Positions 1 through 14,061 of a DNA stretch of 64,000 bases are shown here, one piece after another. Source of the DNA: Agrococcus sp. SGAir0287 (GTDB taxonomy: Bacteria; Actinomycetota; Actinomycetes; Actinomycetales; Microbacteriaceae); the NCBI RefSeq assembly GCF_005484985.1, contig NZ_CP027942.1:2046001-2110000 (forward strand), in the 5' to 3' direction. The first letter of the stretch is position 1, and each line of letters starts with the position of its first letter. The notes below the pieces were generated by a model. The model saw nothing but the letters and a program-made list of their open reading frames with translations, was not told the DNA's origin and searched no databases. Made by a program: the position numbers and the translations under genes.

Positions 1-1767
1 CGTCACCGGCAACCGGTCGGGCAGCGGGTCGCACCACGGGCGCCGTGGCGCCGCATGCGCCCGCGAGTCGGCGACCAGCCGCTCGAGCAGCGCGGGATCG
101 GCGAGCGCCGACTGCGCGTGCACGGTCGACTGCCCGGCGATGCGTACGACGCAGCGCCCGCGCTCGTCGAGGCGCAGCCGTGCGGCGTCGGGCACGCCCG
201 TGACGGCGACGGCATCGGCCTCGTCGGGCACGCGCAGCGAGATCCGCACGCCGCAGTTCGCCAGCACGCCGTCGCGCACCGCCTCCGCCGGTCGTTGCGT
301 GCAGAGGATGAGGTGCATGCCGAGGCTGCGCCCGCGCGCGGCGACGTCGGTGAAGAGGCGCAGCAGCTCGGGCTGGTCGTGGAGCATCGCGGCGAGCTCG
401 TCGACGACGATGACGAGGCGGCCGAGGCCGGTCGCCTCGTCGATCGAGCGGGCACCCTGCTCGTGCAGCGCCCGCTCGCGATGACGCATCTCGGCGCGCA
501 GGCTCTCGATCGCACGGGTCGCGCCCTGCTCGTCGAGGTCCGTGACGAGGCCGACGCAGTGGCGCAGGTCGCGCAGCGCGGCGAACGAGGCGCCGCCCTT
601 GAAGTCGACGAGGAGCACCGCGAGCGCGTCGGGATCGTGACGACGCGCGAGCGCCGCGATCCAGGCGATCAGCAGCTCGCTCTTGCCCGATCCCGTCGTG
701 CCGCCGACGACGGCGTGCGGCCCGTCGACGGCGAGGTCGATCGCGAACGGTCGATCGCCGACGAGGAAGGTCGCGGGCAGCACCCCGGGCGCATCCTGGG
801 CGAGGTCGGCCAGCGGCACGAGCGACGGCAGCGCTCGGGCGCCGCCCAGCCCGGCCTCGACCGCCGCCTCCGCCAGCCGCGTCGCGGCGGCGGCGGCCTC
901 GCGCGCGGCGAGCAGGCTCGGAGTGCAGCGCCGATCGCCGACGCGCACGGCGTCGAGCGCGGCCTGGGCGACGACGCGGCAGTCGCGCGGCAGCGCCGCC
1001 GCGTCCGCCGCGCTCGCGAGCGTGACCTCGACGTCGTCGCCGAGGATGCGCACGAGGGTCCGATCGTCGACGACACGACGGTCGACGTGGTGCGGCAGCG
1101 CGTCGATCCAGGCCCACGACGCGTCCGCCTCCACGACGAGCGAGACCCGGTCGGGCGCGAGCTGCGCGAGCACCTGCACGGCCATGCTCCGCACGTGCGC
1201 GTCGCCGACGCCGCGCGCCGCGACGACTCCGACGCCGAGCCGCGCGTCGACGACGAGGGGCCCCTCGACCTCCGCGGCCCGCGCGCGCAGCGCTCGCGCA
1301 CGACGATCCACGTCCTCCTCCTGCGGCTGGGCGTAGCCGTCGAGCTCGAGGGTCGACGGCACGGCTCCGACGCCGAGCGACACGGGCACCGGCTCGCCCG
1401 GCTCGTGCCGCCAGCGATGCGGATGGTTGACGGGCGCCGAGCCGCACGCGCGCGCGTCGGGATGCGCCGACGCGAGCGCACGCGCCTCCTCGTCGCGCGC
1501 CGCGTCGATCCGCTCGCCCAGCACGTCGCACTCGCGCGCGAAGCGCTCCGCCTCGCGCCGGCGCGAGCGCCGTCGCTGGAGCCGACCGTCGCCGAGGCTC
1601 GCGATCGCGATGATCGGGCCGAGCAGCGCGAACAGCAGCACCGTGGTCGTCTGCGTCACGAGCCAGAGCGCCGCCGCGCCCACGACGGGCGCGAGGCTCG
1701 CGAGCAGCGGGAAGGATGCCGGCGCGGGCTCGGCGGGAGGCGAGGGCAGCTGCAGGCGGTCGGACAC
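1..1767 (-). CDS. EccC-like FtsK/SpoIIIE ATPase, C-terminal part beyond window
   Basis: Reading from a GTG at 1767 gives 589 codons with no stop before the left edge, so the 3' part is missing. The N-terminus has two hydrophobic segments (about residues 20-60) followed by a basic stretch, as in EccC/YukBA proteins. A P-loop GTTGSGKSE lies near residues 356-364 (Lys362), followed by an FtsK/SpoIIIE core with VDFKGG and a Walker B LVIVVDE. This first ATPase domain is intact; further domains would lie outside the window. EccC proteins are the membrane motors of type VII secretion, which is the likely role by family. It is the seventh gene of the PP2C/kinase operon, 79 bp after the transglutaminase-like gene. 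No strong ribosome site precedes the GTG, so the start is provisional. A dedicated DNA-translocating FtsK is less likely because the N-terminus is short. Confidence 0.82.
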   Translation of the reverse strand, partial: MSDRLQLPSPPAEPAPASFPLLASLAPVVGAAALWLVTQTTTVLLFALLGPIIAIASLGDGRLQRRRSRRREAERFARECDVLGERIDAARDEEARALASAHPDARACGSAPVNHPHRWRHEPGEPVPVSLGVGAVPSTLELDGYAQPQEEDVDRRARALRARAAEVEGPLVVDARLGVGVVAARGVGDAHVRSMAVQVLAQLAPDRVSLVVEADASWAWIDALPHHVDRRVVDDRTLVRILGDDVEVTLASAADAAALPRDCRVVAQAALDAVRVGDRRCTPSLLAAREAAAAATRLAEAAVEAGLGGARALPSLVPLADLAQDAPGVLPATFLVGDRPFAIDLAVDGPHAVVGGTTGSGKSELLIAWIAALARRHDPDALAVLLVDFKGGASFAALRDLRHCVGLVTDLDEQGATRAIESLRAEMRHRERALHEQGARSIDEATGLGRLVIVVDELAAMLHDQPELLRLFTDVAARGRSLGMHLILCTQRPAEAVRDGVLANCGVRISLRVPDEADAVAVTGVPDAARLRLDERGRCVVRIAGQSTVHAQSALADPALLERLVADSRAHAAPRRPWCDPLPDRLPVT

Positions 1768-1846
1768 GTCCGGCAGAGTGCCGCGATCCGGGGACCCGGA
1801 CGGCGGTGGTCGACGCGGGGTGTGGACGACGCACGGCTGTGGAGCC

Positions 1847-3991
1847 TCAGCGGTGGACGAGCGAGCGCAGCGAGAGCCGGGCGCGCAGACGGCGATGCCA
1901 GGGGCGTCCCTCGTCGAGCGCGTCGACGAGGCGCTGACGGTGCGACCACGCCTCGTCGACGCTCGCATCGTCGGGGTCGGTGCGGCCGAAGAGCGTCGCG
2001 TCGACGGCGCGCGCGAAGGCGGCCTCCTGCGCGCCGCGCGCGTACTCGAGCCGCGTCGCCGCCGTCTGCCGGGAGCGTCCGCGGTCGACGGCGGCATCGA
2101 CGAACTCGCGCCAGGCGCCGTCCACGCGCGCCGCGGCAGTCGGCGCGATGCGTCGCCTGCGACGCCGCAGCAGCTTCGCGCCGAGCACCGCGAGCGCGGG
2201 CGACGCGACGAGCAGCACGCCGCCGAGCGCGGTCGCGACGACGCCGAGCACGGCGAGCAGGAGTCCGTCGTCGACCGCCTGGGCGGGCGGCTGCACGGGA
2301 TCCGCGGGCTGCTGGTCGCCCTCGATGCCGCCCTCGGGCAGCACGGGGCCCGCCGGCGCCTGGGGCTGGGTCGAGGGCTGCGGCGCCGTCGCCTCCTCCT
2401 CGGGGATGGGCCGCTCCTCGGGCGTCACCGGGATGGCGACCCAGCCGGACTCCTGCGTCGACACCTCGATCCAGGCGTCGAGGTCGCCTGCGACCACCGT
2501 CGTCGGCTGCCCGTCGACGATCGAGCCCGGCACGTAGCCGACGACGATGCGCGCCGGGAATCCCAGCTGCTCGGCGAGCAGGGCGGCGGCGACGGCGTAC
2601 TGCTCGCCATCGCCGACCATGACGCCGTCGAACAGCTCGGCGATGCGCGCGAGCGAGTGGCCCGCGCGCGACGGTGCGTCGTCGTCGACCCCGTGGCTCA
2701 GGTAGCCGTCGGCGGCGAGCCCGTCGACGAGCGCCGCGAGGCGCTCGCCGGGCGTCGTCGCATCCTGCGTCCAGCCGGACAGCCAGGAGACGGCGTCGGC
2801 GGGCGGCGTGACGCCCAGCCGCGGCCGACCCGCGGGAGTGAGCGTCGAGAGGTCGTCGACCGCGGCATCGCGATGGAAGGCGATCTCGTACGCGTCCCCG
2901 GGCTGGATCCCGGCCGTCGCGAGCAGGTCGCCGGTGTCGGCGTCCGCGTGGAGCGTGGCCTGCAGCGCCGGTGCGCGAGCACCCACGAACCCGACGCTCT
3001 CGGGCGTGCCGACGTGCGGGATCCACGGTCCGTCGAGCGCCTGCACCGTCACGCCCAGCACCTCGTCGCCCGACGGCGGGATCGCTGGCTGGCGCACGAA
3101 CGCCGCATCGCCCACCCCTGCGACGACGCCGTCGTAGGCGTCGAGCACCGCGACGGAGAGGCGATCGCCGGGCGCGAGGCCCGTGGCGACGAGCACGGTC
3201 TCGTCGCGCCTGGGCGGCTCGTGCGAGGCTCGGAAGGCCGACAGCGGGCTGTCGAGCTGGCTCGTGTCGAGCATGACGGGATCGGAGCGCAGCACGGTGC
3301 GGTCGCCGAGCACCGCCGCACCGCCGACGATGCCGCAGCCGATCGCGGCGGCGGCGACCGTGAGCGACGCGATCGAGCGCCGCCAGAGCGTGGAGAGGGT
3401 GCGCGGTGCCGCGCGGCGGCGTCGAGCCTGTCGCACGATCGACACGAGCACGACGACGAGGCCCGTGACGAGCACGGCGTGCAGCACGGGAGCCCAGGGC
3501 CTGGCAGGGCCGAAGAGGATCGTCCAGATCGCGATCGCGACCGGCACGATCGCCGCGAGCTCGGCGCGGTGCGCGCGCAGCACGATCGATCCGGAGATCG
3601 CCGAGCCGCCGAGCACGAGCAGCAGCGGTGCCATGAGCACGCCGCCGCCGACGCCGACGGGGGTCTGGATGGTGAGGATGTCGCGCCACGACTGCCAGAT
3701 GGCCGGGACGACGACCGCGTAGGCCTCGGGGGTCGGCAGGATGCCCGCGAGGAGCTCGGGCGCGACGAGCGGCGGCGCGACGATCGCGAGCGTGCCGAGG
3801 CCCACGAGGATGAGCCACAGCGCCGGCCAGCGCCGCCACCAGCCGAGCACCGCGATGCCCGTGCCTGCGAGGAGCGCGGTGGCGACGACGGGCACGATGC
3901 GCGTCGACCCGAAGAGCGCACCCATGGGCAGGCACGCGGCGAGGATCGCGAGGACGCTCGCCGTGAGCGCGGCGAGGCGCCACTGCGTCAT
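1847..3991 (-). CDS. Membrane protein with degenerate transglutaminase-like domain (TgpA-like)
   Basis: 714 residues. Five to six membrane segments fill the first 200 residues, then comes an extracytoplasmic part with a transglutaminase-like fold, a Pro/Gln/Glu-rich linker, a membrane segment near 590-615 and a cytoplasmic DUF4129-like tail. The fold is recognisable from GEQYAVAAALLAEQLG, VVGYVPG and DAWIEV, but the catalytic triad is gone: the cysteine position is Gly462, the histidine position Asp505 and the aspartate position Pro521. It is therefore probably a binding or scaffold protein, not an enzyme. MoxR-DUF58-TgpA trios are a common bacterial arrangement and this gene follows both. 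Its ATG overlaps the DUF58 stop codon (ATGA), so translation is likely coupled. Confidence 0.85.
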   Translation of the reverse strand: MTQWRLAALTASVLAILAACLPMGALFGSTRIVPVVATALLAGTGIAVLGWWRRWPALWLILVGLGTLAIVAPPLVAPELLAGILPTPEAYAVVVPAIWQSWRDILTIQTPVGVGGGVLMAPLLLVLGGSAISGSIVLRAHRAELAAIVPVAIAIWTILFGPARPWAPVLHAVLVTGLVVVLVSIVRQARRRRAAPRTLSTLWRRSIASLTVAAAAIGCGIVGGAAVLGDRTVLRSDPVMLDTSQLDSPLSAFRASHEPPRRDETVLVATGLAPGDRLSVAVLDAYDGVVAGVGDAAFVRQPAIPPSGDEVLGVTVQALDGPWIPHVGTPESVGFVGARAPALQATLHADADTGDLLATAGIQPGDAYEIAFHRDAAVDDLSTLTPAGRPRLGVTPPADAVSWLSGWTQDATTPGERLAALVDGLAADGYLSHGVDDDAPSRAGHSLARIAELFDGVMVGDGEQYAVAAALLAEQLGFPARIVVGYVPGSIVDGQPTTVVAGDLDAWIEVSTQESGWVAIPVTPEERPIPEEEATAPQPSTQPQAPAGPVLPEGGIEGDQQPADPVQPPAQAVDDGLLLAVLGVVATALGGVLLVASPALAVLGAKLLRRRRRRIAPTAAARVDGAWREFVDAAVDRGRSRQTAATRLEYARGAQEAAFARAVDATLFGRTDPDDASVDEAWSHRQRLVDALDEGRPWHRRLRARLSLRSLVHR

Positions 3992-5169
3992 GCGAGCGCC
4001 TCCGAGCGGAGCCCGCGGGGCAGGTCCTCGAGCAGGCCGACCGTCAGCACGGGCACGCGCCCGAGGCGACCGACGGACGGTGGAGCGAGCGCGTCCGCGC
4101 GCAGCACGATCGGGGCGACGTCCGGCGGCAGCAGACCCGTCGCCTCGCGCAGCCGTCGCGGCGCTGCCGTGCCGCCGACGACGATCCAGGCGACGGAGGC
4201 CTGCGGGGCGAGCGCGATCGAGCGCACGACGTCGACGATCCCGAGCCGACGATCCGTGGCGAGGTCCGTCAGGGCGTCGAGCAGGCGATCGCGCGTGCGC
4301 GCATCGACGGTCGCCGGGTCGAGGCGGCCGCTCGAGGGGCTCTCGACGACGCGCACGCTGCGGCGCTGCGCGATGGCGGCCGACGCGATCGTGGCGACGA
4401 CCTCGAGCGCGAGCTCGAAGTCGTCGGCGCCGTAGTCCTCCGCGCTCGTCGAGACGCACACGAGCGTGTCGCTGCGCTTCGACGGCTCGAACTGCCGCAC
4501 GAGCAGCTGCCCGGTCCGCGCCGTCGATCGCCAGTGGACGTGCCGCGGCTCGTCGCCGGGGTGGTAGTCGCGCAGGCTGTGGAACGCGACGTCGTCGGCG
4601 GTGAGCTCGGCGGAGGTCTCGCCCTCGAGGTCGCGGACGAGGCCCGCGGCGACCGACGGGATCCGCGCGACCCGCGGATGCACGACGAGCTCGCTCGCCG
4701 CCGTGAGCACGTGCGTGCGCTCGAGGATGCCGAAGGGGTCCGTGCGCAGCACGGTCGCCGGTCCGACGACGACCCTGCCGCGGCGGCGCGTGTCGAGCAC
4801 GATGCGCTGCGTCGAGTCCTCTCCCGTGTCGAGGCGCGGCAGGTCGAGGCGGTACACGACGTCGCCCACGAGCACGTCGATCGCGCGCGGCGCGAAGAAG
4901 CGCCCCGGCCTGCGCACGACGAGCGTGGCGTGCGCGGGCTGGCCGACCGGCACGCGCTCGGCGGACAGCGCGAGCTGCACGTCGACGTCGCGCTGCCCGA
5001 GCACCCAGGGCAGCGCCGCGAGCACGAGCAGCAGCGCACCGGAGGCGGCGACGACGAGCTCGACCCAGCCGAGCGCGACGCCGACGGGACCGCCGACGAT
5101 CGCGACGCCCACGAGCGTCCATCCCCAGCCGGTGACGACGCGCGTCGAGCGCCGCAGCAGCTCGATCAC
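3988..5169 (-). CDS. DUF58 domain-containing membrane protein
   Basis: 393 residues starting at GTG 5169, which overlaps the MoxR stop by 4 bp. Two membrane helices lie in about residues 12-55. The DUF58 core follows, with its characteristic block RDYHPGDEPRHVHWRSTAR and LLVRQFE near the middle of the protein, and a C-terminal vWA-like fold. DUF58 proteins pair with MoxR AAA+ ATPases and are thought to be their substrates or adaptors in envelope assembly; the biochemical role is unknown. Here the gene is sandwiched between moxR and the transglutaminase-like gene with overlaps at both ends, which argues for a stoichiometric complex. Confidence 0.9.
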   Translation of the reverse strand: MIELLRRSTRVVTGWGWTLVGVAIVGGPVGVALGWVELVVAASGALLLVLAALPWVLGQRDVDVQLALSAERVPVGQPAHATLVVRRPGRFFAPRAIDVLVGDVVYRLDLPRLDTGEDSTQRIVLDTRRRGRVVVGPATVLRTDPFGILERTHVLTAASELVVHPRVARIPSVAAGLVRDLEGETSAELTADDVAFHSLRDYHPGDEPRHVHWRSTARTGQLLVRQFEPSKRSDTLVCVSTSAEDYGADDFELALEVVATIASAAIAQRRSVRVVESPSSGRLDPATVDARTRDRLLDALTDLATDRRLGIVDVVRSIALAPQASVAWIVVGGTAAPRRLREATGLLPPDVAPIVLRADALAPPSVGRLGRVPVLTVGLLEDLPRGLRSEALA

Positions 5170-6128
5170 GATCGGTCGCGGCCTCGCGGCGGCGGGGTCG
5201 AGAGCATGAGCTGCTGCAGGATCGTCTCCTGCGTGATGCCGTCGAGCTCGGCCTCGGGCTCGAGCACGATGCGGTGCGCGAGCACGGGGATGACGAGCGC
5301 CTTGACGTCGTCGGGAGTCACGTAGTCGCGGCCGTCGAGAGCCGCGTAGGCGCGCGCCGTCCGCACGAGCGAGAGCGCGCCGCGCACGCTCACCCCCAGG
5401 CGCACCTCGCCAGACTGCCGCGTCGCGTCGACGATCCGCGCGACGTAGTCGGCGACGGCCGCGTCGACGTGCACGGTCGCGACGACGCCCGCGAGCTCCC
5501 GCAGCCGCGCCGTGTCGACGACGGGCGCGAGCGACGCGGGATCGACGGGCTCGGCGGACCCCTCGAGGATGCGCAGCGTCGACGCGTGGTCGGGGTAGCC
5601 GATGGACGTGCGCAGCGCGAAGCGATCGAGCTGCGCCTCGGGCAGACGGTACGTGCCCGACTGCTCGATCGGGTTCTGCGTCGCGACGACCATGAACGGC
5701 GCGGGCACGGCATGCGGCCGCCCGTCGACCGTCACGCGGCCCTCCTGCATGACCTCGAGCATCGCCGACTGCGTCTTCGGGCTCGCGCGGTTGATCTCGT
5801 CGGCGAGGACGACGTTGGCGAAGACCGGACCCTCGTGGAAGCGGAAGCGGCCGGTGGACTGGTCCCAGATGCTCACGCCCGTGATGTCGCCGGGCAGCAG
5901 GTCGGGGGTGAACTGGATGCGCGACGCGGATCCGTCGATGCACGCCGCGAGCGCGCGGGCGAGCGACGTCTTGCCGGTGCCGGGGTTGTCCTCGACGAGC
6001 AGGTGGCCGCCCGAGAGCATCGCCGTGAGCGCGAGGCGCACGACGTGGGCCTTGCCGACGAGCACGGGCTCGATGGCCTCGGCCATGCGGTCGCCCAGCT
6101 CGCGGATCGCGGTCACGTCGTCGGTCAT
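5166..6128 (-). CDS. MoxR family AAA+ ATPase
   Basis: 320 residues, the normal length for the family. Walker A is NPGTGKTS at residues 48-55, Walker B VVLADEINR begins near 107, and the MoxR hallmark ATQNPIEQSGTYRLPEAQLDRF follows as separate ATQNPIEQ and LPEAQLDRF blocks. A C-terminal lid domain ends with the QQLMLSTPPP region. MoxR ATPases act as chaperones that mature or remodel partner proteins, usually a DUF58/vWA protein encoded next door, as here. The start at ATG 6128 lies 9 bp after the stop of the giant surface-protein gene. All active-site residues are present, in contrast to the dead transglutaminase two genes downstream. Confidence 0.94.
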   Translation of the reverse strand: MTDDVTAIRELGDRMAEAIEPVLVGKAHVVRLALTAMLSGGHLLVEDNPGTGKTSLARALAACIDGSASRIQFTPDLLPGDITGVSIWDQSTGRFRFHEGPVFANVVLADEINRASPKTQSAMLEVMQEGRVTVDGRPHAVPAPFMVVATQNPIEQSGTYRLPEAQLDRFALRTSIGYPDHASTLRILEGSAEPVDPASLAPVVDTARLRELAGVVATVHVDAAVADYVARIVDATRQSGEVRLGVSVRGALSLVRTARAYAALDGRDYVTPDDVKALVIPVLAHRIVLEPEAELDGITQETILQQLMLSTPPPRGRDRS

Positions 6129-6137
6129 CGGTCTCCT

Positions 6138-9100
6138 CTACATGCTGCACGCGGCGGCGGGCGATGGCAGCGGGTTCCTGCCGGTGACGGTGTCGAGCAG
6201 CCCCGACGTTACCTGTCCGACGACCTGCACCGAGGCAGCACCCGCGGGCACGACGATCGGCTGGTTGGCGTCCCCCGTCCGCTCGACCTCGCTGCCGTCG
6301 GCCATCGTGAACGTCGCGACGACGCGGTTCGTCGCGTTCGCGTTCGTCGGCGGCGCCGCGCCCCGCAGCGGCTCGTTCCACCGGCACTCGAGCGGCAGGG
6401 AGAGCACGGCGGCGAGGCTCAGCGGCGTGTAGGCGCCGACGCGCTGCGGCTGGCTGCACGCGACGAGCGTCTGCCCCGGCGAGCACTGCCGGATGTCGAC
6501 GACGTACTCGCGACCGTAGACGAGGCCGGCGGGCACGAGCCGGTCCCCCGCCGCGACGGGCGTCCACGCGCCCTGCACGTTCGGGCCCTGCACGCGCACC
6601 TCCATCGTCGTGCCCTGGTCCGGCGTCACGGCCGTGACGAGCATGTCGAGCGCATCGCGCGGCGCCTGCTCGGTGCCGTCGTCGAGCGCGATCCGCAGGT
6701 CGCCGGCGTCCGGGGCGGACGGCAGCACCGGCGCGCTCACCGACACGCTGCAGAACCAGCCGTTGTCGGCGACGACGACGATCTGGCTGCGTCCGCCGGA
6801 CGGCAGCCGCACGGTGCCCGACGTGCCCGACTGACCCGCCGGGGTCCCGCCGCCCGTCGAGCTGCAGCTCGGCGTCGGCGCTCCTGCCGCGACGGCCTGC
6901 AGCCGGTACCGCAGGTCCGCTCCGCCGGAGGCCGGCGCCGCCCAGACGACGCTCGCGGTGCTCGACGCCTCGTCGAAGCCCGACAGCACCACCGAGGTCT
7001 GTCCCGGCGGCCCCACCGCCGTGAACGGATGCGGCGTCGACCAGCGCCAGGCGTCGTCGGCGACGCCCGCATCGTTGGTCGCGGCGACCTCGACCTCGTA
7101 GGCCCGGCCGGGCTGCAGGCCGGAGAGGGCGACCTCGCGCGCGGCGGCGTCGAGGCGCAGCAGGATGCCCGCCTCCCGCACCCGCACGAGGTATCCCGTG
7201 ACGCCCGTCGCCCCCTGCGGCACCGTCGCCGCCTGCCAGCGCACGATCGTCGTGCCCGCGGTCGACGTCGGCGTGGAGGACACGCCCGTCACGGGCGCGG
7301 GCAGGCGGTCGGCGTGCATGGGCTCCGACGGCGACGACGGCTCGCTCGCTCCGACGGCGTTGCGGGCGACGACCTGCAGTCGCACGTCGACCCCGACCGG
7401 CAGGTCGGTGAGCGTGCACGTCGTGGACGGCCCGCACTCGTGCCGGTACCCGTTCGGGCCGAGCAGCGTGTAGCCGAGGATGGGGCTGTTGCCGTCGCCG
7501 GGCGGCGTGATGCGCACCACGAGGCCCGCGTCGATGTGCTGATCGGCGGCCTGCTGGGGCGGTGCGGGGCGGTCCGGCACGTCGTGGACCACGATCGTCA
7601 GCGTGCTCCAGACCGCGCGCCGCGGATCGCCCGTCGCGTCGAGCACCTGGTACCGCACGGTGGTCGTGCCCACGCGCGCGAGCTCGGACGTCTCGACCGA
7701 GAGGACGCTCGAGCCTGCCGCGCGCCGCAACGCGACGCCGAGGGGCACCGTCGACTGGTCGACGGCGGCGAGCACGAGCGGCGTGCCCGGGAAGGGGTTC
7801 GTGGCCTCGTCGTTGGCGAGGAGGTCGACGCTCGCGGCGCCGCCGCGCACGACCTCGATCCGGTCGGGCTGCGGCTGCGCGAGCGGCCTGGTCGACGAGA
7901 TGGTCACGAGACGGAGGGTGCCGGGGATGCCGTCGCCGTCGGGCCCCGTCACCGCGACCTCGAGCTCGCCGGTCGTGCCGACCTGCGCGCCCGCGGTGCG
8001 CACGGTGAGCAGCGAGCCGTCGATCGTCGCCGAAAAGCCCGGCGGGACGTCGCCGAGGGACCACGAGAAGCCGGCGACGGCCTCCGGATCCGGCGCCGTC
8101 GTGATGCGCGCGAGGTCGAGCTCCCTCGTGCCGCCCTGCTCGAGCTGCAGCGTCGTGCCGAGCACTCGACCCGGCAGGCCCTCGCCGGGCTCGACGGTGA
8201 TGGGCAGCACGATGGAGGCGACGCGCCCGTCGGGATCGCCGGGCGACTCGCCGTCGGTCACCTCGAAGGCGATGCTCGCGAACCCGAAGTACCCGGGCGC
8301 GGACGTGAAGCGCAGCGTGCGCGAGTCGACGACGGGCTGCGCGCCGTCGGAGTGCTCGGCGCGCACGCTCGACGCGTCGGTGATGAGGACGGGGTCGCCA
8401 TCGACGGCCACGACGTAGTCGTCGACGTCGATCTCGATCGTCTCCCCCGACGCGACGACGATGGGCGGCGCGTCGGGACGCAGCTGCGGCAGGGCGTCCT
8501 CGGTGCCCGGCACGACGACGAGCGCCGAGGCGGACTCCCCCGTGTCCTCGCGCGTCACGGTGTAGGGCACGACGCGCGTCTGCGGGGCGACGGCGACCCG
8601 GATCGTGCCGTCGGCGTCGATCCGCGTCCCGGCGACGTCGAGCGGCAGGGTCGTGACGAGCTCGTCGATCGCGCCGTCGGCCACCGTGACGGCGTCCATG
8701 GGATCGACGACGACCTGCTCACGGTCGAGGATCGCGGCGACGGGCACGCGCACGTCCTGCGCACGCGGGGCGGGGGGCTCGGCGTCCTCGTCGACGACGA
8801 CGCGCAGCCAGCCGACGGCCTGCGCGCCGCGCGAGGACTCGATCGTCACGACGACGCCGTACTCGCCGGGCTCCTCGCCCGCGGTCACGAGCACCTCCCC
8901 GTCGACGACCTCCGCCTCGACGTCACCCTGCGGCAGTGCGCTCACGACGTCGAGGGCGAGCCCCGCGGGGTCGAGGTCGTTGGCGAGGACGTCCACGGTC
9001 TGCGCCGTGCCCGGGCGCAGCGCGACCATGTCGGGCTCGGCGATCGGCGGAGCGACGGCGCCGTCCGGTGGTGCGACGCCGATGCGCACGATGCCCTGGG

Positions 9101-11867
9101 CCTGCGCGCCGAGGTCGTCGGCGACGACGTAGGCGAGGGTCTCGGTGCCCGCCGAGTAGCCGCCCGCCTCGTACCGCAGCGTGCCGCCGTCGACGATCGT
9201 GGCGCTGCCGAGGCTCGCCGGCGTCGCGAGCCCGACGAGCGCGACGCCGTCGCCGTTCGGGTCGGCGGTCGTCAGGTCGATCGGGATGTCGACGGTCTCG
9301 CCGGCGACGACGCGCGCGTCCACGGTGGGCGGCGAGGGGGCTACGTTCGTGGCGGCGTCGGAGTCGGCGACGACGATGCGGACCGTGGCGAACGCGGACT
9401 GCCCGTCGGGGCCGCGGATCTCGTAGGTGACGGAGACCTCGCCGGGCTCGTCGGCGGCGACGTAGCGCAGGCGATCGCCGTCGACGAAGGCGAGACCGGA
9501 CGCGGCGGGCTCGAGGAGGTCCGGGACGAGCTCGACCGCTGCGCCGTCGGGGTGCTCGTCGTTCGCCAGGACGGGCACGTCGACGGCGCCGCCCGGCTGC
9601 ACGCGCACGGCGTCGTCGCGCGCGATCGGCGCCTGCATCGCGGCGTCGCGCTCGACCACCTCGATGGTGCCCTCCGCGGTCGAGGCGCCGTTCGAGAGCC
9701 CGTAGCGCACGGTCGCGGGGCCGCCGAGCGGGCCGCCGAGCTCGATGCGCACGCGCTCCTGGTCGACGACGTCGACCCGCACGGCGTCGCTGTCGACGCT
9801 CGCGCCGGTCACGACGAGCACGCCCCCCGCGGGATCCACGTCGAGGTCGGCGACCGGGACCTCGACGGCGCCGCCGGAGAGCACCCCGACGGCGTGCGGC
9901 GCGGGCTGCGGCGGGGTCGCGGGATCCACGGCAGGCAGCACCTGCACCCGCACCTGACCCGTCGCGGTCTCGACGCCGTCGCTCACGACGTACGTGAACG
10001 CGGTCGTGCCGACCGCGTCGGGCGTCACGGCGATCGTGTCGTCGACGTAGCTGGCCTGCACGACCCCCGCGGGTCCGTTGACGTTGTGGAGCGAGAGCGC
10101 GTCGCCGCCGCGCGCCGACAGCAGCGGCTCGAGGATCGTCGTCTGCCCCAGCCGGGTCGTGGCGGTGACCGTGCCCGCGACGAGCGGCGGCTGCTCGACG
10201 GGGACGAGCCCGATGGTGCCGCGCACGATCGTGGTGCCGTCGGAGACCGCGATGGCGAGGTCGCGCACCGTGCCGGCGCCGCCGTCGACGATCTCGATGC
10301 GTCCGTCGCCGCGGAAGCGCACGACGTCGCCCGCGTCGCTCGACGCGTCGACGAGCACGAGCGCGTCGCCGTCGGGATCGATCCAGTGGTCGAAGGCGTT
10401 CGCGACCACGGCCTCGCCCGGAGCGATCTCGAGCTGCACCGACCGCTGCGCGACGGGCGGCTCGTCCTGCTCCGGCGCGCGCACCTCGACGGTCGCGGTC
10501 GCCGTGTCCTCGCCACCGGCGCCGTCCGAGATCCGGTACGCGAGCACGACCTGGCCCGACGCGTCGGCGGGCAGCGCGAGGCGGATGGATCGCCCGTCGG
10601 GCGCGATCGTGGCGTTCGGGTCGCCGTCGACCGCGACGACCGTGAGGACGTCGCCGTTCGGGTCGACGTCGTTCTCGAGCACCGGCAGCAGCGTGACCCG
10701 ACCCGGCCTGGCACCGAGCGCGTCGTCGTTCGCGGTCGGCGGCAGCTGCTCGGGGTCGTCCGCGCCGGCGCCCGGATCCTCGGGCTCCTCGCCGCCGGGC
10801 GCGACGGCCGGCGGCGCGGGCAGCGACCAGTCGTCGACGAGCGCGCCGTCGCGCGCCACGGTCCACGCATCGCCCGACCCCGCGTCCGCGAGCACGACGG
10901 CGTCGCCGCGTGCGACGAGCGCGAGCTGCGCGCCGGCCTCCACGCCATCGAGCTCGAGGAGCGCCTCGTCCGCACCGCAGCCGCGCCAGACGGCGCCCGA
11001 CGCCCACGCGCCGAAGACGCAGCCGTCGTGCACGAGCGGTCGCGAGGGCGCCCCGTCGAGGCCGGATGCGACGACGTCGACCGTCTCGACGCCCAGCTCG
11101 CGCGCCTCGATCCCCGTGTCGGTCGCGACGAGCACGCGCCCGGATGCGGGCCCGGGCAGCTGCAGGACCGCCGACTCCGCCTGGAGGCGGGTCTCCCAGC
11201 CGCGGCTGGAGAGCACGTTCGACGTCGTGTCGAGCAGGACCCACCGCTCGCCGACCGCGGTGATCTGCAGGCTCGGCTCCTCCGGCGACATCGGCGCGTC
11301 CGACGACGCGAGCGTCTCGCCCGTGGCCACGTCGATCTCGAGCACGCGTCCGAGCCCCGGCGAGGCCGCGAACAGCGTCGACGAGGTGAGTGCGGCGACG
11401 GCTCCGCGGCCGAGCTGCACCACGGGGTCGCCGAGCTCCTCGCCCGACTGCACGGCGGCGACGTCGGTCACCCACACGTCGCCGCTCGAGGGCGCGACGA
11501 TCGAGACGGCGTCGCCGGCGACCTGCACGTCGGATCCCGCGGGCAGCAGCACGGCGGGTCCGCGCTCGAGCGTCGCGGGATCGAGCGCGCGCATGACGCT
11601 CGCGGCGCGATCGACGACGAGCACGCCCTCGGATCCCTGCACGACCTCGCTCGCGGCGCCGCCGGGAGCGACGATCGACTCGAGCTGGTCGGTCTGCGTG
11701 TTCACGACGCCCACGAGGTCGGCGGCGGCGTTCGCGACCCACACGCTCGACGCATCGAGCCGAGGGTCGAGCGCCGCGTTGCCGGGCCAGAGGGCCGCCG
11801 CGGTCGCGACGGACACGGCGAGCACGCCGCCGAGGGCGATCCCGCCGATCCGCGTCGCGCGACTCAC
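6138..11867 (-). CDS. Giant Ig-like/fibronectin III repeat surface protein
   Basis: 1909 residues. GTG at 11867 is preceded by a strong GGGGAGGT ribosome site and overlaps the kinase stop. One hydrophobic segment at residues 6-26 looks like a signal anchor. Residues about 30-350 have short repeats typical of a beta-propeller (SSVWVANAAAD, GEGVLVVDR-like blades), then a Pro/Glu/Asp linker. About ten Ig/cadherin-like repeats follow, several with LANDxDPxG or ISDG/VSDG motifs found in bacterial adhesins (for example LPVLENDVDPNGD, VLANDEHPDG, VLANDLDPAG). At least three fibronectin III domains and a Cys-containing C-terminal module complete it. No sortase motif or catalytic domain was seen. It probably spans or lines the cell wall; its position between a receptor-like kinase and MoxR suggests it is a regulated or structural component of the same machine. 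Confidence 0.9.
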   Translation of the reverse strand: MSRATRIGGIALGGVLAVSVATAAALWPGNAALDPRLDASSVWVANAAADLVGVVNTQTDQLESIVAPGGAASEVVQGSEGVLVVDRAASVMRALDPATLERGPAVLLPAGSDVQVAGDAVSIVAPSSGDVWVTDVAAVQSGEELGDPVVQLGRGAVAALTSSTLFAASPGLGRVLEIDVATGETLASSDAPMSPEEPSLQITAVGERWVLLDTTSNVLSSRGWETRLQAESAVLQLPGPASGRVLVATDTGIEARELGVETVDVVASGLDGAPSRPLVHDGCVFGAWASGAVWRGCGADEALLELDGVEAGAQLALVARGDAVVLADAGSGDAWTVARDGALVDDWSLPAPPAVAPGGEEPEDPGAGADDPEQLPPTANDDALGARPGRVTLLPVLENDVDPNGDVLTVVAVDGDPNATIAPDGRSIRLALPADASGQVVLAYRISDGAGGEDTATATVEVRAPEQDEPPVAQRSVQLEIAPGEAVVANAFDHWIDPDGDALVLVDASSDAGDVVRFRGDGRIEIVDGGAGTVRDLAIAVSDGTTIVRGTIGLVPVEQPPLVAGTVTATTRLGQTTILEPLLSARGGDALSLHNVNGPAGVVQASYVDDTIAVTPDAVGTTAFTYVVSDGVETATGQVRVQVLPAVDPATPPQPAPHAVGVLSGGAVEVPVADLDVDPAGGVLVVTGASVDSDAVRVDVVDQERVRIELGGPLGGPATVRYGLSNGASTAEGTIEVVERDAAMQAPIARDDAVRVQPGGAVDVPVLANDEHPDGAAVELVPDLLEPAASGLAFVDGDRLRYVAADEPGEVSVTYEIRGPDGQSAFATVRIVVADSDAATNVAPSPPTVDARVVAGETVDIPIDLTTADPNGDGVALVGLATPASLGSATIVDGGTLRYEAGGYSAGTETLAYVVADDLGAQAQGIVRIGVAPPDGAVAPPIAEPDMVALRPGTAQTVDVLANDLDPAGLALDVVSALPQGDVEAEVVDGEVLVTAGEEPGEYGVVVTIESSRGAQAVGWLRVVVDEDAEPPAPRAQDVRVPVAAILDREQVVVDPMDAVTVADGAIDELVTTLPLDVAGTRIDADGTIRVAVAPQTRVVPYTVTREDTGESASALVVVPGTEDALPQLRPDAPPIVVASGETIEIDVDDYVVAVDGDPVLITDASSVRAEHSDGAQPVVDSRTLRFTSAPGYFGFASIAFEVTDGESPGDPDGRVASIVLPITVEPGEGLPGRVLGTTLQLEQGGTRELDLARITTAPDPEAVAGFSWSLGDVPPGFSATIDGSLLTVRTAGAQVGTTGELEVAVTGPDGDGIPGTLRLVTISSTRPLAQPQPDRIEVVRGGAASVDLLANDEATNPFPGTPLVLAAVDQSTVPLGVALRRAAGSSVLSVETSELARVGTTTVRYQVLDATGDPRRAVWSTLTIVVHDVPDRPAPPQQAADQHIDAGLVVRITPPGDGNSPILGYTLLGPNGYRHECGPSTTCTLTDLPVGVDVRLQVVARNAVGASEPSSPSEPMHADRLPAPVTGVSSTPTSTAGTTIVRWQAATVPQGATGVTGYLVRVREAGILLRLDAAAREVALSGLQPGRAYEVEVAATNDAGVADDAWRWSTPHPFTAVGPPGQTSVVLSGFDEASSTASVVWAAPASGGADLRYRLQAVAAGAPTPSCSSTGGGTPAGQSGTSGTVRLPSGGRSQIVVVADNGWFCSVSVSAPVLPSAPDAGDLRIALDDGTEQAPRDALDMLVTAVTPDQGTTMEVRVQGPNVQGAWTPVAAGDRLVPAGLVYGREYVVDIRQCSPGQTLVACSQPQRVGAYTPLSLAAVLSLPLECRWNEPLRGAAPPTNANATNRVVATFTMADGSEVERTGDANQPIVVPAGAASVQVVGQVTSGLLDTVTGRNPLPSPAAACSM

Positions 11868-13222
11868 GGCACCTCCCCGCAGGCCTCCGCGCCGTCGCCC
11901 GAGCGACCGTCCCGGTTCACGGCGACCGTGATGCACAGCTCCTCGCCGCTCGAGCCCGACAGCCGGAAGCTCGTCGCGCGCTGGATGACCGCGTCGCCTG
12001 ACGCCGTCGTGACGAGGTAGGAGTCGGCGTCGACGAGCCCCGGGTCCTCCCACGAGAACGCGACGCCGCCGTCGACCGGCTCCGCGACGACCTCCTCGAC
12101 GACCGGGATCGCACCCTGGATCGTCGTCACCGCCACGGCGACCACCGCGACCGCACCGAGCACGGCGGCCGTCGCCGCGCCCACGGCCAGCGACACGAGC
12201 CCCTTGCGCCTCGGCGGGGCGACGGCCTGCGTCGACGAGGAGATGTCGATCTGCTGCGCGCCGCGCATCGGCGCGCGCCGACGCGCGGCCCGCACGCGCA
12301 GCGGCAGCTCCTCCTCGCGATCCGCATCGTCGGCCGCATCGACCTCGCGCGCCCACGCGCGCTCCTGCAGGTCGATGGGCGTGATCGGCACGCCCATCTC
12401 CTCCTGCACGGCCTGCAGGTCCTCCACCATCGGCAGGATGGCGTGGTAGCGGTCGGCGGGATCCTTCGCGAGCGCCTTCTGCACGACGCGCAGCAGCGTG
12501 CGCGGGGCGTCGACGTCGAAGGGCTGGATGTCGTGGGCGAGGATGCGCGCCGAGAGCTCGTCCGTGCCGTTGCGCCCGCCGCGCACCTCGGCGGGGCTGC
12601 GACCGGCGACGAGCGAGTACAGCGTCGCCCCGAACGACCACACCTCGCTGGCGACGGTGCCGGCCGTCTCGTCACGCAGCACCTCGGGCGCCGACCACGG
12701 CACCGAGACGCCCGCGGTCTCGTGGTCGCCGACGTGCATGTTCGCCGCGATGCCGAAGTCCGACAGGACGGGATGCCCGAACGCGGTCGTGAGGATGTTC
12801 GCGGGCTTCACGTCGCGGTGGAGCGTGCCGGCGCGGTGGGCCGTCTCGAGGGCGCCGCCGACGCGGACCATGATCTCGAGCGCGTCGTCGAGCTCGAGCG
12901 GTCGTTCGCGGAAGCGGTCGCCGATCTCCGTCGAGCACAGCTCCATCACGAGGTAGGGCCGTCCGTCGCCCGCGACGCTCGCCGAGTACACCGTGAGGAT
13001 CGACGGATGCGCGCTGAGCCTGCCCATGAGGTTCACCTCGGAGCGGAAGGCGCTGCGCACGCGATCGTCGACGAGGTCGGCGTGCATGACCTTCACGGCG
13101 ACGGGTCGACGCGGCAGGTTCTGCTCGTACAGGAAGACGTCGGCGAAGCCGCCCTTGCCGAGGATGTGGACGTGCGTGAACCCAGGCAGCACCGGTGGCG
13201 TCGACGGCAGCCTGGCGGCCAT
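11864..13222 (-). CDS. Membrane Ser/Thr protein kinase with extracellular Fn3-like domain
   Basis: 452 residues. The cytoplasmic kinase domain has GKGGFADVF, VAVKV (Lys44), HRDVKPANIL (Asp136), DFG at 155-157 and SAPEVL, so it should be active. A basic juxtamembrane linker leads to one helix at about 342-365 and then an outside domain of about 75 residues with a Fn3-like pattern (VAFSWEDPG, SYLVTT, CITVAVN) and two cysteines that may pair. Actinobacterial PknB-type kinases normally carry PASTA repeats; here an Fn3-like sensor replaces them, matching the Fn3 domains of the next gene product. The gene follows the PP2C phosphatase by 2 bp and overlaps the giant gene by 4 bp. Natural substrates are unknown; the operon products are obvious candidates. 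Confidence 0.93.
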   Translation of the reverse strand: MAARLPSTPPVLPGFTHVHILGKGGFADVFLYEQNLPRRPVAVKVMHADLVDDRVRSAFRSEVNLMGRLSAHPSILTVYSASVAGDGRPYLVMELCSTEIGDRFRERPLELDDALEIMVRVGGALETAHRAGTLHRDVKPANILTTAFGHPVLSDFGIAANMHVGDHETAGVSVPWSAPEVLRDETAGTVASEVWSFGATLYSLVAGRSPAEVRGGRNGTDELSARILAHDIQPFDVDAPRTLLRVVQKALAKDPADRYHAILPMVEDLQAVQEEMGVPITPIDLQERAWAREVDAADDADREEELPLRVRAARRRAPMRGAQQIDISSSTQAVAPPRRKGLVSLAVGAATAAVLGAVAVVAVAVTTIQGAIPVVEEVVAEPVDGGVAFSWEDPGLVDADSYLVTTASGDAVIQRATSFRLSGSSGEELCITVAVNRDGRSGDGAEACGEVP

Positions 13223-13224
13223 GC

Positions 13225-14061
13225 TCAGTCCTCGCGCAGCGTCGCCCGGGGCACGGTGCGATCGACGTCCTCGACCTCGGGAGCGCGCACGACGTCCACG
13301 ACGACGACGGTGACGTTGTCGCGACCGCCCGCGTCGAGCGCGGCGTCGACGAGCGCCTCGCACGCCGCGTGCGGGTCCTCGTGCTCGGCGAGGATGCGCT
13401 CGATCTCGACGTCGCCGATCTCCTTCGTGAGCCCGTCCGAGCACACGAGCAGCCGCAGCCTGGGCATGATCGGCAGCAGGAAGTAGTCGGGCACGGGGTC
13501 GGCGTTGAAGCCCACGGCCCGCGTCACGACGTTCGCCTCGGGATGCGACTCGGCCTCGTCCTCGGCGAGCAGGCCCGCGTCGACGAGCTCCTGCACGACC
13601 GAGTGGTCGACGGTGATGCGGGTGAGGCGCTCGCCGAGCATCGCGTACGTGCGCGAGTCGCCGACGTTGAAGATCGCGAAGTAGGGCTCGCCGTCGTGCT
13701 CGGCGAAGGCGCATCCCGTGACGGTCGTGCCCGTGCCGGCGTCGTCGTCGCCCGCGAGGCGCGCGATGTCGGCGGTCGCCTCGCGCAGCGCCTCCACGAC
13801 GTCCGACGGCTCGACCCGCTCCCGTCCACCGAGCTCGCCGAGCCGCTCCACGACGACGCGGCTCGCGAGGTCGCCGTGGCTGTGGCCGCCCATGCCGTCG
13901 GCGATCGCGAAGACGGGCGGCTGCGTCACGAGGCTGTCCTCGTTGTGGGCGCGGCGCAGACCCACGTCGGTCGTGCCGGCCCAGCGCACCTGGAACGTCT
14001 GGCTCGCCGGCCCCTGGCCCGTGTGCTCGCCGACAGGCGCTCCGATGTGCGTCACACGCAC
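13225..14061 (-). CDS. PP2C-type Ser/Thr protein phosphatase (PstP-like)
   Basis: About 278 residues from GTG 14061; GTG 14055 is an in-frame alternative, and GGGAG lies just upstream. Longer in-frame starts are less likely because the added residues resemble no PP2C. Metal-binding and fold motifs are complete: AHNEDS, DGMGGHSHGD, GTTVTGCAF, VGDSRTY, CSDGLTKEIGD and GGRDNVTVVVV. There is no membrane helix, so the enzyme is cytoplasmic. It is first in the operon and immediately precedes the kinase, the usual pairing of a kinase with its reversing phosphatase. It is divergent from the Lrp gene, with a 134-bp gap that must hold the operon promoter. Confidence 0.94.
   Translation of the reverse strand: MRVTHIGAPVGEHTGQGPASQTFQVRWAGTTDVGLRRAHNEDSLVTQPPVFAIADGMGGHSHGDLASRVVVERLGELGGRERVEPSDVVEALREATADIARLAGDDDAGTGTTVTGCAFAEHDGEPYFAIFNVGDSRTYAMLGERLTRITVDHSVVQELVDAGLLAEDEAESHPEANVVTRAVGFNADPVPDYFLLPIMPRLRLLVCSDGLTKEIGDVEIERILAEHEDPHAACEALVDAALDAGGRDNVTVVVVDVVRAPEVEDVDRTVPRATLRED

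Follow-up and report, generated by a model that had tools for sequence, protein, structure and literature searches.

Which machine is encoded by an operon that joins a phosphatase and a kinase to a giant surface protein, a MoxR-DUF58-TgpA trio and a secretion-type ATPase? The question is raised by the left end of the window studied here, a 64,000-nucleotide stretch of Agrococcus sp. SGAir0287 (NZ_CP027942.1, positions 2046001-2110000 of a single-contig genome of 3.08 Mb). Seven contiguous genes, all called on the minus strand, encode a PP2C-type Ser/Thr phosphatase of 278 residues (13225..14061; PP2C_2, E-value 1e-6), a Ser/Thr kinase of 442 residues with a GTG start at 13192 (11864..13192; Pkinase, 5e-39), a giant protein of 1909 residues (6138..11867; Big_9 in six stretches, fn3 in two), a MoxR AAA+ ATPase of 320 residues (5166..6128; AAA_3, 1e-61), a DUF58 protein of 393 residues (3988..5169; Pfam DUF58, 2e-11), a TgpA-like membrane protein of 714 residues (1847..3991; Transglut_core, 7e-9, with TgpA_N below its cut-off) and a small ATPase of 880 residues (FtsK_SpoIIIE, 4e-26), whose first 589 codons lie inside the window (1..1767) and whose remaining 876 bases lie beyond its left edge. 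The metal-binding motifs of the phosphatase, the catalytic motifs of the kinase and the Walker motifs of MoxR are intact, and 4-base overlaps occur at the kinase/giant, MoxR/DUF58 and DUF58/TgpA-like junctions. Coordinates and Pfam matches agree with the families, order and strand given in an initial annotation of the window.

We find that this operon is real, conserved and co-inherited. In our preferred reading, to which we assign a probability of about 0.55, it encodes a kinase/phosphatase-gated MoxR machine that would assemble, or signal through, the giant surface protein and would use a motor repurposed from a type VII secretion system (T7SS). The initial annotation, which had proposed one machine for secretion or wall anchoring built around an EccC-like motor, is partly supported overall. 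The same gene order recurs in relatives, and a chance arrangement is therefore not an issue.

The operon ATPase is a shortened EccC

The ATPase scores 222 bits against the NCBIfam model EssC, 196 against EccCa, 131 against EccCb and 32 against FtsK, the EssC and EccC scores being below the full-length cut-offs of those models. Among PDB sequences the best match is 4nh0 (173 bits), followed by EccC5 (108 bits) and FtsK (54 bits); 4nh0 was deposited as FtsK/SpoIIIE, and we take it to be an EccC. Both sets of scores rule out an FtsK identity, and as judged by sequence comparison the ATPase is EccC-type and not FtsK, in keeping with the motor assignment of the initial annotation, which had left open a closer kinship to FtsK.

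An alignment of 20 such mini-ATPases with 11 EccCs reveals what distinguishes the two. In the mini-ATPases the first hydrophobic segment is preceded by 12-27 residues, versus 232-246 in the EccCs, a region that contains an FHA domain in the EccC of the same genome. Consequently, they are without the FHA region, and their N-terminus is hydrophobic (transmembrane by eye). The D1 Walker A, Walker B and RGRSLG motifs are kept, and the D2 P-loop is partly degenerate, with GKS/GKT in some mini-ATPases and GRS/GRT in others. Counted from the D2 Walker B column, the remaining C-terminal part has 201-276 residues in 19 of the 20 mini-ATPases versus 346-380 in 9 of the 11 EccCs; the exceptions are the mini-ATPase of L057, whose frame runs to 687, and two EccCs with 323 and 85 residues, the latter cut by the end of its locus. 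On this alignment, the C-terminus of the mini-ATPases is also shortened.

A larger paralogous cluster carries WXG100 genes

A search with PF01882 found four DUF58 genes in the genome, one of them in a larger cluster paralogous to the operon at ~2,533-2,562 kb on the minus strand, ~495 kb away. Its order is giant, MoxR, DUF58, TgpA-like, RDD-FHA, PP2C, FHA, kinase, a 244-residue protein (no Pfam match at E 5), EccC and small genes, which include two WXG100 copies. The giant of this cluster has 2048 residues (Big_9 in eight stretches, fn3 in three), its EccC has 1531 residues with an FHA domain, and its FHA protein 458. Over the matched parts, operon and large cluster are 57% identical in MoxR, 48% in the kinase, 43% in PP2C, 41% in DUF58, 33% in TgpA and 32% in the giant. 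The large cluster is set apart from the operon by its full EccC with FHA, its FHA and RDD-FHA proteins and its WXG100 genes. We note that the WXG100 pair (2536452-2537176; L008 9434-10191) encodes identical 95-residue proteins.

The initial annotation had anticipated secretion components beyond the left edge of the window. The left flank held none: among 15 of the 17 open reading frames (ORFs) called in the 18 kb beyond the ATPase, those 15 having been searched against Pfam, no secretion-family match was found, which counts against that expectation. A WXG100 gene was not found at the operon locus, and an FHA match was found neither in the operon nor in the 15 left-flank ORFs. EccB (PF05108), a component of T7SSa (ESX) that was also anticipated, is without a match above cut-off in the whole genome, the single partial match (21 bits, cut-off 27) being 1.2 Mb away.

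Conservation and co-inheritance of the operon

All 23 genomes of the genus that were searched gave a match to the mini-ATPase, mostly at full or nearly full length and in some in pieces; that in G021 is short and lies where a contig ends. We fetched 20 stretches around the mini-ATPase: 14 show the seven genes in order, and L055-L057 are consistent with this order as far as the stretch extends. PF06013 (WXG100) matches lie within 30 kb of 0/24 small ATPases versus 21/22 large EccC genes. For 13 of the small ATPases a distance could be measured on one contig, the nearest WXG100 gene being 196 kb away, and 11 have none on their contig; WXG100 genes are present in 39 of the 40 genomes searched. 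In the genus, 15/15 loci fetched around EccC comprise giant, MoxR, DUF58, TgpA, RDD-FHA, FHA, kinase, the 244-residue gene and EccC, with PP2C in 14 of them (not found in L195).

Trees were built from 31-53 rows each, covering a chosen part of the loci, and are unrooted. Seven loci (L057, L077, L080, L082, L083, L094 and L103) were left out of the final trees for long branches or truncation and were present in a first MoxR tree. Small-type proteins, those of the operon kind, fall on one side of a branch for MoxR (support 97), TgpA (100), kinase (99), giant (100), ATPase (100) and PP2C (100, its small-type rows being same-genus only). This grouping in six of seven trees supports co-function. 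We regard the operon as probably a reduced paralogue of the T7SS-linked cluster, reduction being our reading of the FHA and WXG100 difference, as the trees are unrooted. Ratios of nonsynonymous to synonymous substitution rates (dN/dS) were calculated with a simple method at high G+C; three same-genus pairs gave 0.04-0.43 over the whole set of seven genes.

Beyond the genus, a large-type TgpA query matched 73 of 99 order-sampled genomes at 1e-10. TgpA matches that reach 1e-20 number 61, and near 21 of these an EccC-query match (1e-60) lies no more than 20 kb away, in each case on the same strand; the EccC list for this count omitted some rows, for example G081 (EccC ~345 kb from TgpA). A single one of the 40 weaker TgpA matches, for which a fuller list was used, is near an EccC. 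The set giant-MoxR-DUF58-TgpA, hereafter the quartet, keeps its order in 37 of the 40 order loci, which had been picked by TgpA matches and partly for a nearby EccC; one locus (L104) is cut. The best motor is an EccC match in 11 of the 40, and six loci (L097-L101, L103) hold the complete run with RDD-FHA, PP2C, FHA, kinase and 244-residue gene.

A scan of named genomes with a TgpA alignment, pattern-biased at the cysteine column, gave the best 80 of 564 relatives, and these include Bifidobacterium, Cellulomonas, Microbacterium, Arthrobacter, Sanguibacter and Jonesia. The quartet is in order at 75 of the 80 named loci, the other five being cut by contig ends. An EccC match of at least 300 bits lies in the available flank of nine, and the core module adjoins EccC in Microbacterium, Arthrobacter, Agreia, Cryobacterium and Georgenia, among others. 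Of the 38 Bifidobacteriaceae loci among the 80, 32 have a kinase match and 19 a PP2C match.

Several observations weigh against a single machine built on an EccC-type motor. Forty of the 61 strong TgpA matches are without EccC within 20 kb, one of the 21 EccC-adjacent cases (G060) is a mini-ATPase and not a full EccC, and none of the 38 Bifidobacteriaceae loci has an EccC match. Across the phylum, TgpA matches at 1e-20 occur in 12 of 198 genomes. Two of the 40 order loci (L066 and L079) show no MoxR, and the quartet is missing from five stretches around EccC in other genera of the family. Within the genus, TgpA and ATPase stand alone in L052 (G012), and PP2C and ATPase in L054 (G024) and L058 (G025). 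In G012 the operon is split within TgpA, and the remainder, ending in an N-terminal TgpA piece, lies 1.4 Mb away (L052, L216), which suggests a rearrangement or an assembly fault. The small-type kinase-to-TgpA set of G025 is ~220 kb from the mini-ATPase, and G024 has its mini-ATPase beside PP2C and no small-type MoxR, its best MoxR being 52% identical. EccC, together with a WXG100 gene, is likewise away from the quartet in G067, G105 and G119. Motor and module are therefore separable. In addition, the DUF58 tree needs two changes to group the small-type proteins, though a single change may suffice; the first MoxR tree, which contained outgroups, placed the full-EccC row L094 among small-type rows, and an other-genus pair gave dN/dS of 0.14-0.60, with 0.84 for a kinase fragment. 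In sum, the single machine of the initial annotation is favored by the co-inherited set and by the trees, and is weakened by the partial or split sets of G012, G024 and G025; these three form the scattered minority against a gene order otherwise kept in relatives.

The transglutaminase-fold protein lacks the catalytic cysteine

We compared 155 module TgpA-like proteins (16 small-type from the genus, five other small-type, 16 large-type from the genus, 38 from the order sample and the 80 named ones). None of them (0/155, with 80 from the pattern-biased scan) carries the cysteine at the catalytic column of the alignment. The catalytic histidine is present in 16/16 large-type genus proteins, 9/38 of the order sample, 26/80 of the named set and 0/21 small-type proteins. 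As an alignment control, the TgpA of the canonical trio of the same genome (L064 7625-11918), unlike the operon protein, has kept both residues. The cysteine is replaced by D, A, E, G, S or Q, with Ser usual in Bifidobacterium. Given this variety a substitute nucleophile at that column is not favored, although, judged by sequence, Ser might serve as one.

The module TgpA profile matches the solved "protein-glutamine gamma-glutamyltransferase" 6g49, presumably Pseudomonas aeruginosa TgpA, starting two residues past the cysteine column, and the transglutaminase fold is retained. Low dN/dS across all seven genes together with the loss of the cysteine suggests that the TgpA-like protein is kept by selection without the chemistry. 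The protein published as the PFNA "transglutaminase", a member of this module in Bifidobacterium, very probably performs no cross-linking chemistry either, judging from its sequence.

Relation to known systems

The PFNA operon (pkb2, fn3, aaa-atp, duf58, tgm) has a constant order and is co-transcribed in B. longum (PMC6803598, PMC8430577); in some species prpC, a hypothetical gene and fha also follow tgm. In Bifidobacterium the MoxR protein is a phosphorylation target of the kinase Pkb2, and a role of FN3 in adhesion is cited (PMC6803598). The tgm product is treated as a transglutaminase (PMC6803598, PMC8430577), the operon is read as serving species-specific host communication in Bifidobacterium, and a comparison with the mycobacterial moxR operon is given in PMC12067865.

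The Agrococcus operon shares with PFNA the kinase, the Fn3 protein, MoxR, DUF58 and the transglutaminase-fold gene in the same order, and the likeness includes sequence homology to named species, eight of them in the figure legend of the PFNA review. As in the operon's TgpA-like protein, the catalytic cysteine is missing from PFNA tgm. Unlike in PFNA, the PP2C gene comes first rather than after tgm, no FHA gene was found in the operon, and an EccC-type ATPase stands at its end; the word FtsK is absent from the two PFNA papers searched. Because giant-MoxR-DUF58-TgpA plus kinase is the published PFNA operon, the statement of the initial annotation that no characterized system has this set fails for five of the seven genes. 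We also note PP2C-like matches behind tgm (L107, L108, L115 and L121, at ~12.4-13.6 kb) in B. choerinum, B. ruminantium, B. boum and B. commune; prpC is given as absent for these four species in the legend of the PFNA review.

T7SSd and T7SSe (Garrett et al. 2024, PMC11217815) also speak against the statement: like the operon, they have an EccC/EssC-family ATPase, a membrane Ser/Thr kinase and a giant envelope protein with Ig-like character, to which T7SSe adds a PPM phosphatase. The operon differs from both by having no WXG100 gene at the locus and no FHA region in its ATPase. It also has MoxR, DUF58 and TgpA-like genes, and the terms MoxR, transglutaminase, fibronectin and DUF58 occur 0 times in PMC11217815. 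By description, the giant is a putative counterpart of TsdI, the giant Ig protein of T7SSd in Olsenella.

The canonical MoxR-DUF58-transglutaminase trio (context in PMC6803598) shows the same three families in order; near that of the same genome (L064), no giant or kinase match was found in its 20 kb stretch. MoxR-vWA ternary systems with a beta-propeller are described in PMC7159879. The operon propeller is predicted in the giant, behind the N-terminal helix and probably extracytoplasmic, and a relation to the published component would be putative. The operon MoxR scores 37 bits (above cut-off) against bpMoxR and 207 against AAA_3. An assignment to the ternary system is not favored, as bpMoxR matches the MoxR of another operon in the genome more strongly (50 bits). 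In open-licence PMC literature, neither a PFNA-T7SS link nor a mini-EccC variant nor a module-wide absence of the cysteine was found.

Features of the individual proteins

The giant protein comprises an N-terminal membrane helix, a beta-propeller, Big_9/cadherin-like Ig repeats and two Fn3 domains. A structure model predicts the propeller, of the eight-bladed type, at about residues 37-348; its profile had no match among PDB sequences, and the fold is assigned from the model alone. The last 254 residues have no Pfam match at E 5. By eye, the kinase has one transmembrane segment and a short extracytoplasmic tail; the tail resembles Fn3 by eye, but it has no Pfam match at E 5 and was not taken as such. 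The phosphatase scores 200 bits against the NCBIfam model Stp1, under its 230-bit cut-off. Throughout the aligned rows the motifs of kinase, PP2C and MoxR are intact; the kinase sequences from L074 and L076 are incomplete, as is the PP2C sequence from L056. In the alignment, the DUF58 protein has Ser where two canonical DUF58 paralogues of the genome carry Asp, at a position that is variable across the module, with Asp kept in some members.

A model for the operon and its alternatives

We propose that the operon, as a divergent and probably reduced paralogue of the T7SS-linked cluster, would consist of the PFNA core (kinase, giant, MoxR, DUF58 and TgpA-like protein) with an added PP2C and its own cut-down EccC motor. 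The giant would be exported, with its N-terminal helix as anchor and the predicted propeller just outside the membrane. The TgpA-like protein, whose cysteine is lost, may use its non-catalytic fold to bind rather than cross-link. From what is known of these families, DUF58 could link it to cytoplasmic MoxR, which would remodel the membrane complex, and kinase and PP2C may set MoxR activity by reversible phosphorylation, phosphorylation of MoxR by the kinase being published for Bifidobacterium. The mini-EccC would serve as a membrane motor that acts on a putative substrate other than WXG100 proteins or moves components of the complex. Overall, the operon would control the assembly of a giant surface adhesin or signal through it.

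A more specific version can be held only tentatively. Here a T7SS-derived export motor without WXG100, a minimal EccC, would serve a single giant propeller/Ig/Fn3 adhesin, with kinase, phosphatase, MoxR chaperone and pseudo-transglutaminase as its gate, and PFNA of Bifidobacterium would be related to such a secretion-linked machine instead of serving host sensing alone. Our analysis ties together the literature on the PFNA operon and that on T7SS variants with kinases and giant Ig proteins, and the mini-EccC is a natural case in which to test the abilities of a T7SS motor without WXG100 substrates.

The operon could instead be an accessory of the distant T7SS, supplying a second motor, a regulator and an envelope stalk that act on the WXG100 substrates of the large locus. 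Mini-ATPase and large locus do coexist in the SGAir0287 genome and in 15/15 genus genomes with large loci fetched, and the near-general presence of WXG100 genes agrees with such a role. We consider it rather unlikely, however, since the mini-ATPase lacks both the FHA region of EccC and a portion of its C-terminus, and the two loci are 462-670 kb apart in 9 of the 11 genomes that have both on the same contig. Moreover, G020 (99% complete, draft) keeps a mini-ATPase beside a small-type TgpA, with no large-type EccC found. Its large cluster (L211, C5:18500-38400) runs from giant to 244-residue gene, including the kinase, and no EccC follows in the 2.5 kb available downstream. Separate functions on a shared transcript, with the conserved order reflecting history, would account for the natural splits and partial sets in G012, G024 and G025; the order kept across families and the parallel grouping in six trees make this unlikely.

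Alternatively, the operon might be a WXG100 secretion system in its own right, with its small substrate gene overlooked. This would fit an EccC-type motor with an intact D1, but it is improbable given the near-complete split in WXG100 proximity between small ATPases and large EccCs, and inspection by eye showed no small hairpin gene next to the operon (other hairpin models were not tried there). Least probable by far is that the transglutaminase-fold protein anchors or cross-links the giant enzymatically: the fold is kept, but the uniform absence of the cysteine makes enzymatic wall anchoring unlikely, and the small-type proteins are without the histidine that canonical TgpA has alongside its cysteine. 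Of the "secretion or wall anchoring" in the initial annotation, secretion thus retains indirect support from the paralogous cluster with its full EccC and WXG100 genes, and enzymatic anchoring does not hold.

Flanking DNA

The left-flank search comprised all called ORFs except L004 1-216 and 13771-14157, and seven ORFs were searched again at E 0.1. Leftward of the ATPase come first one weak PASTA-like ORF and next, on the plus strand, genes for a DAO oxidoreductase and a class-III aminotransferase. The PASTA-like ORF (L004 16751-17080, 109 residues) was rejected as part of the operon, with 13 bits against a cut-off of 23 and no tblastn match in the stretches of 20 relatives. Further left are genes for a peptidase M50, GcpE, an MFS transporter, a MoxR-DUF58-VWA set and a class II tRNA synthetase; the set, MoxR-DUF58-VWA-VWA, lies at L004 2125-7278, ~11 kb left of the window. 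A tRNA-Pro call at 10587-10676, on the opposite strand within the giant gene, is probably false. To the right, the operon is flanked by genes for AsnC, an aminotransferase and a gamma-glutamyltranspeptidase.

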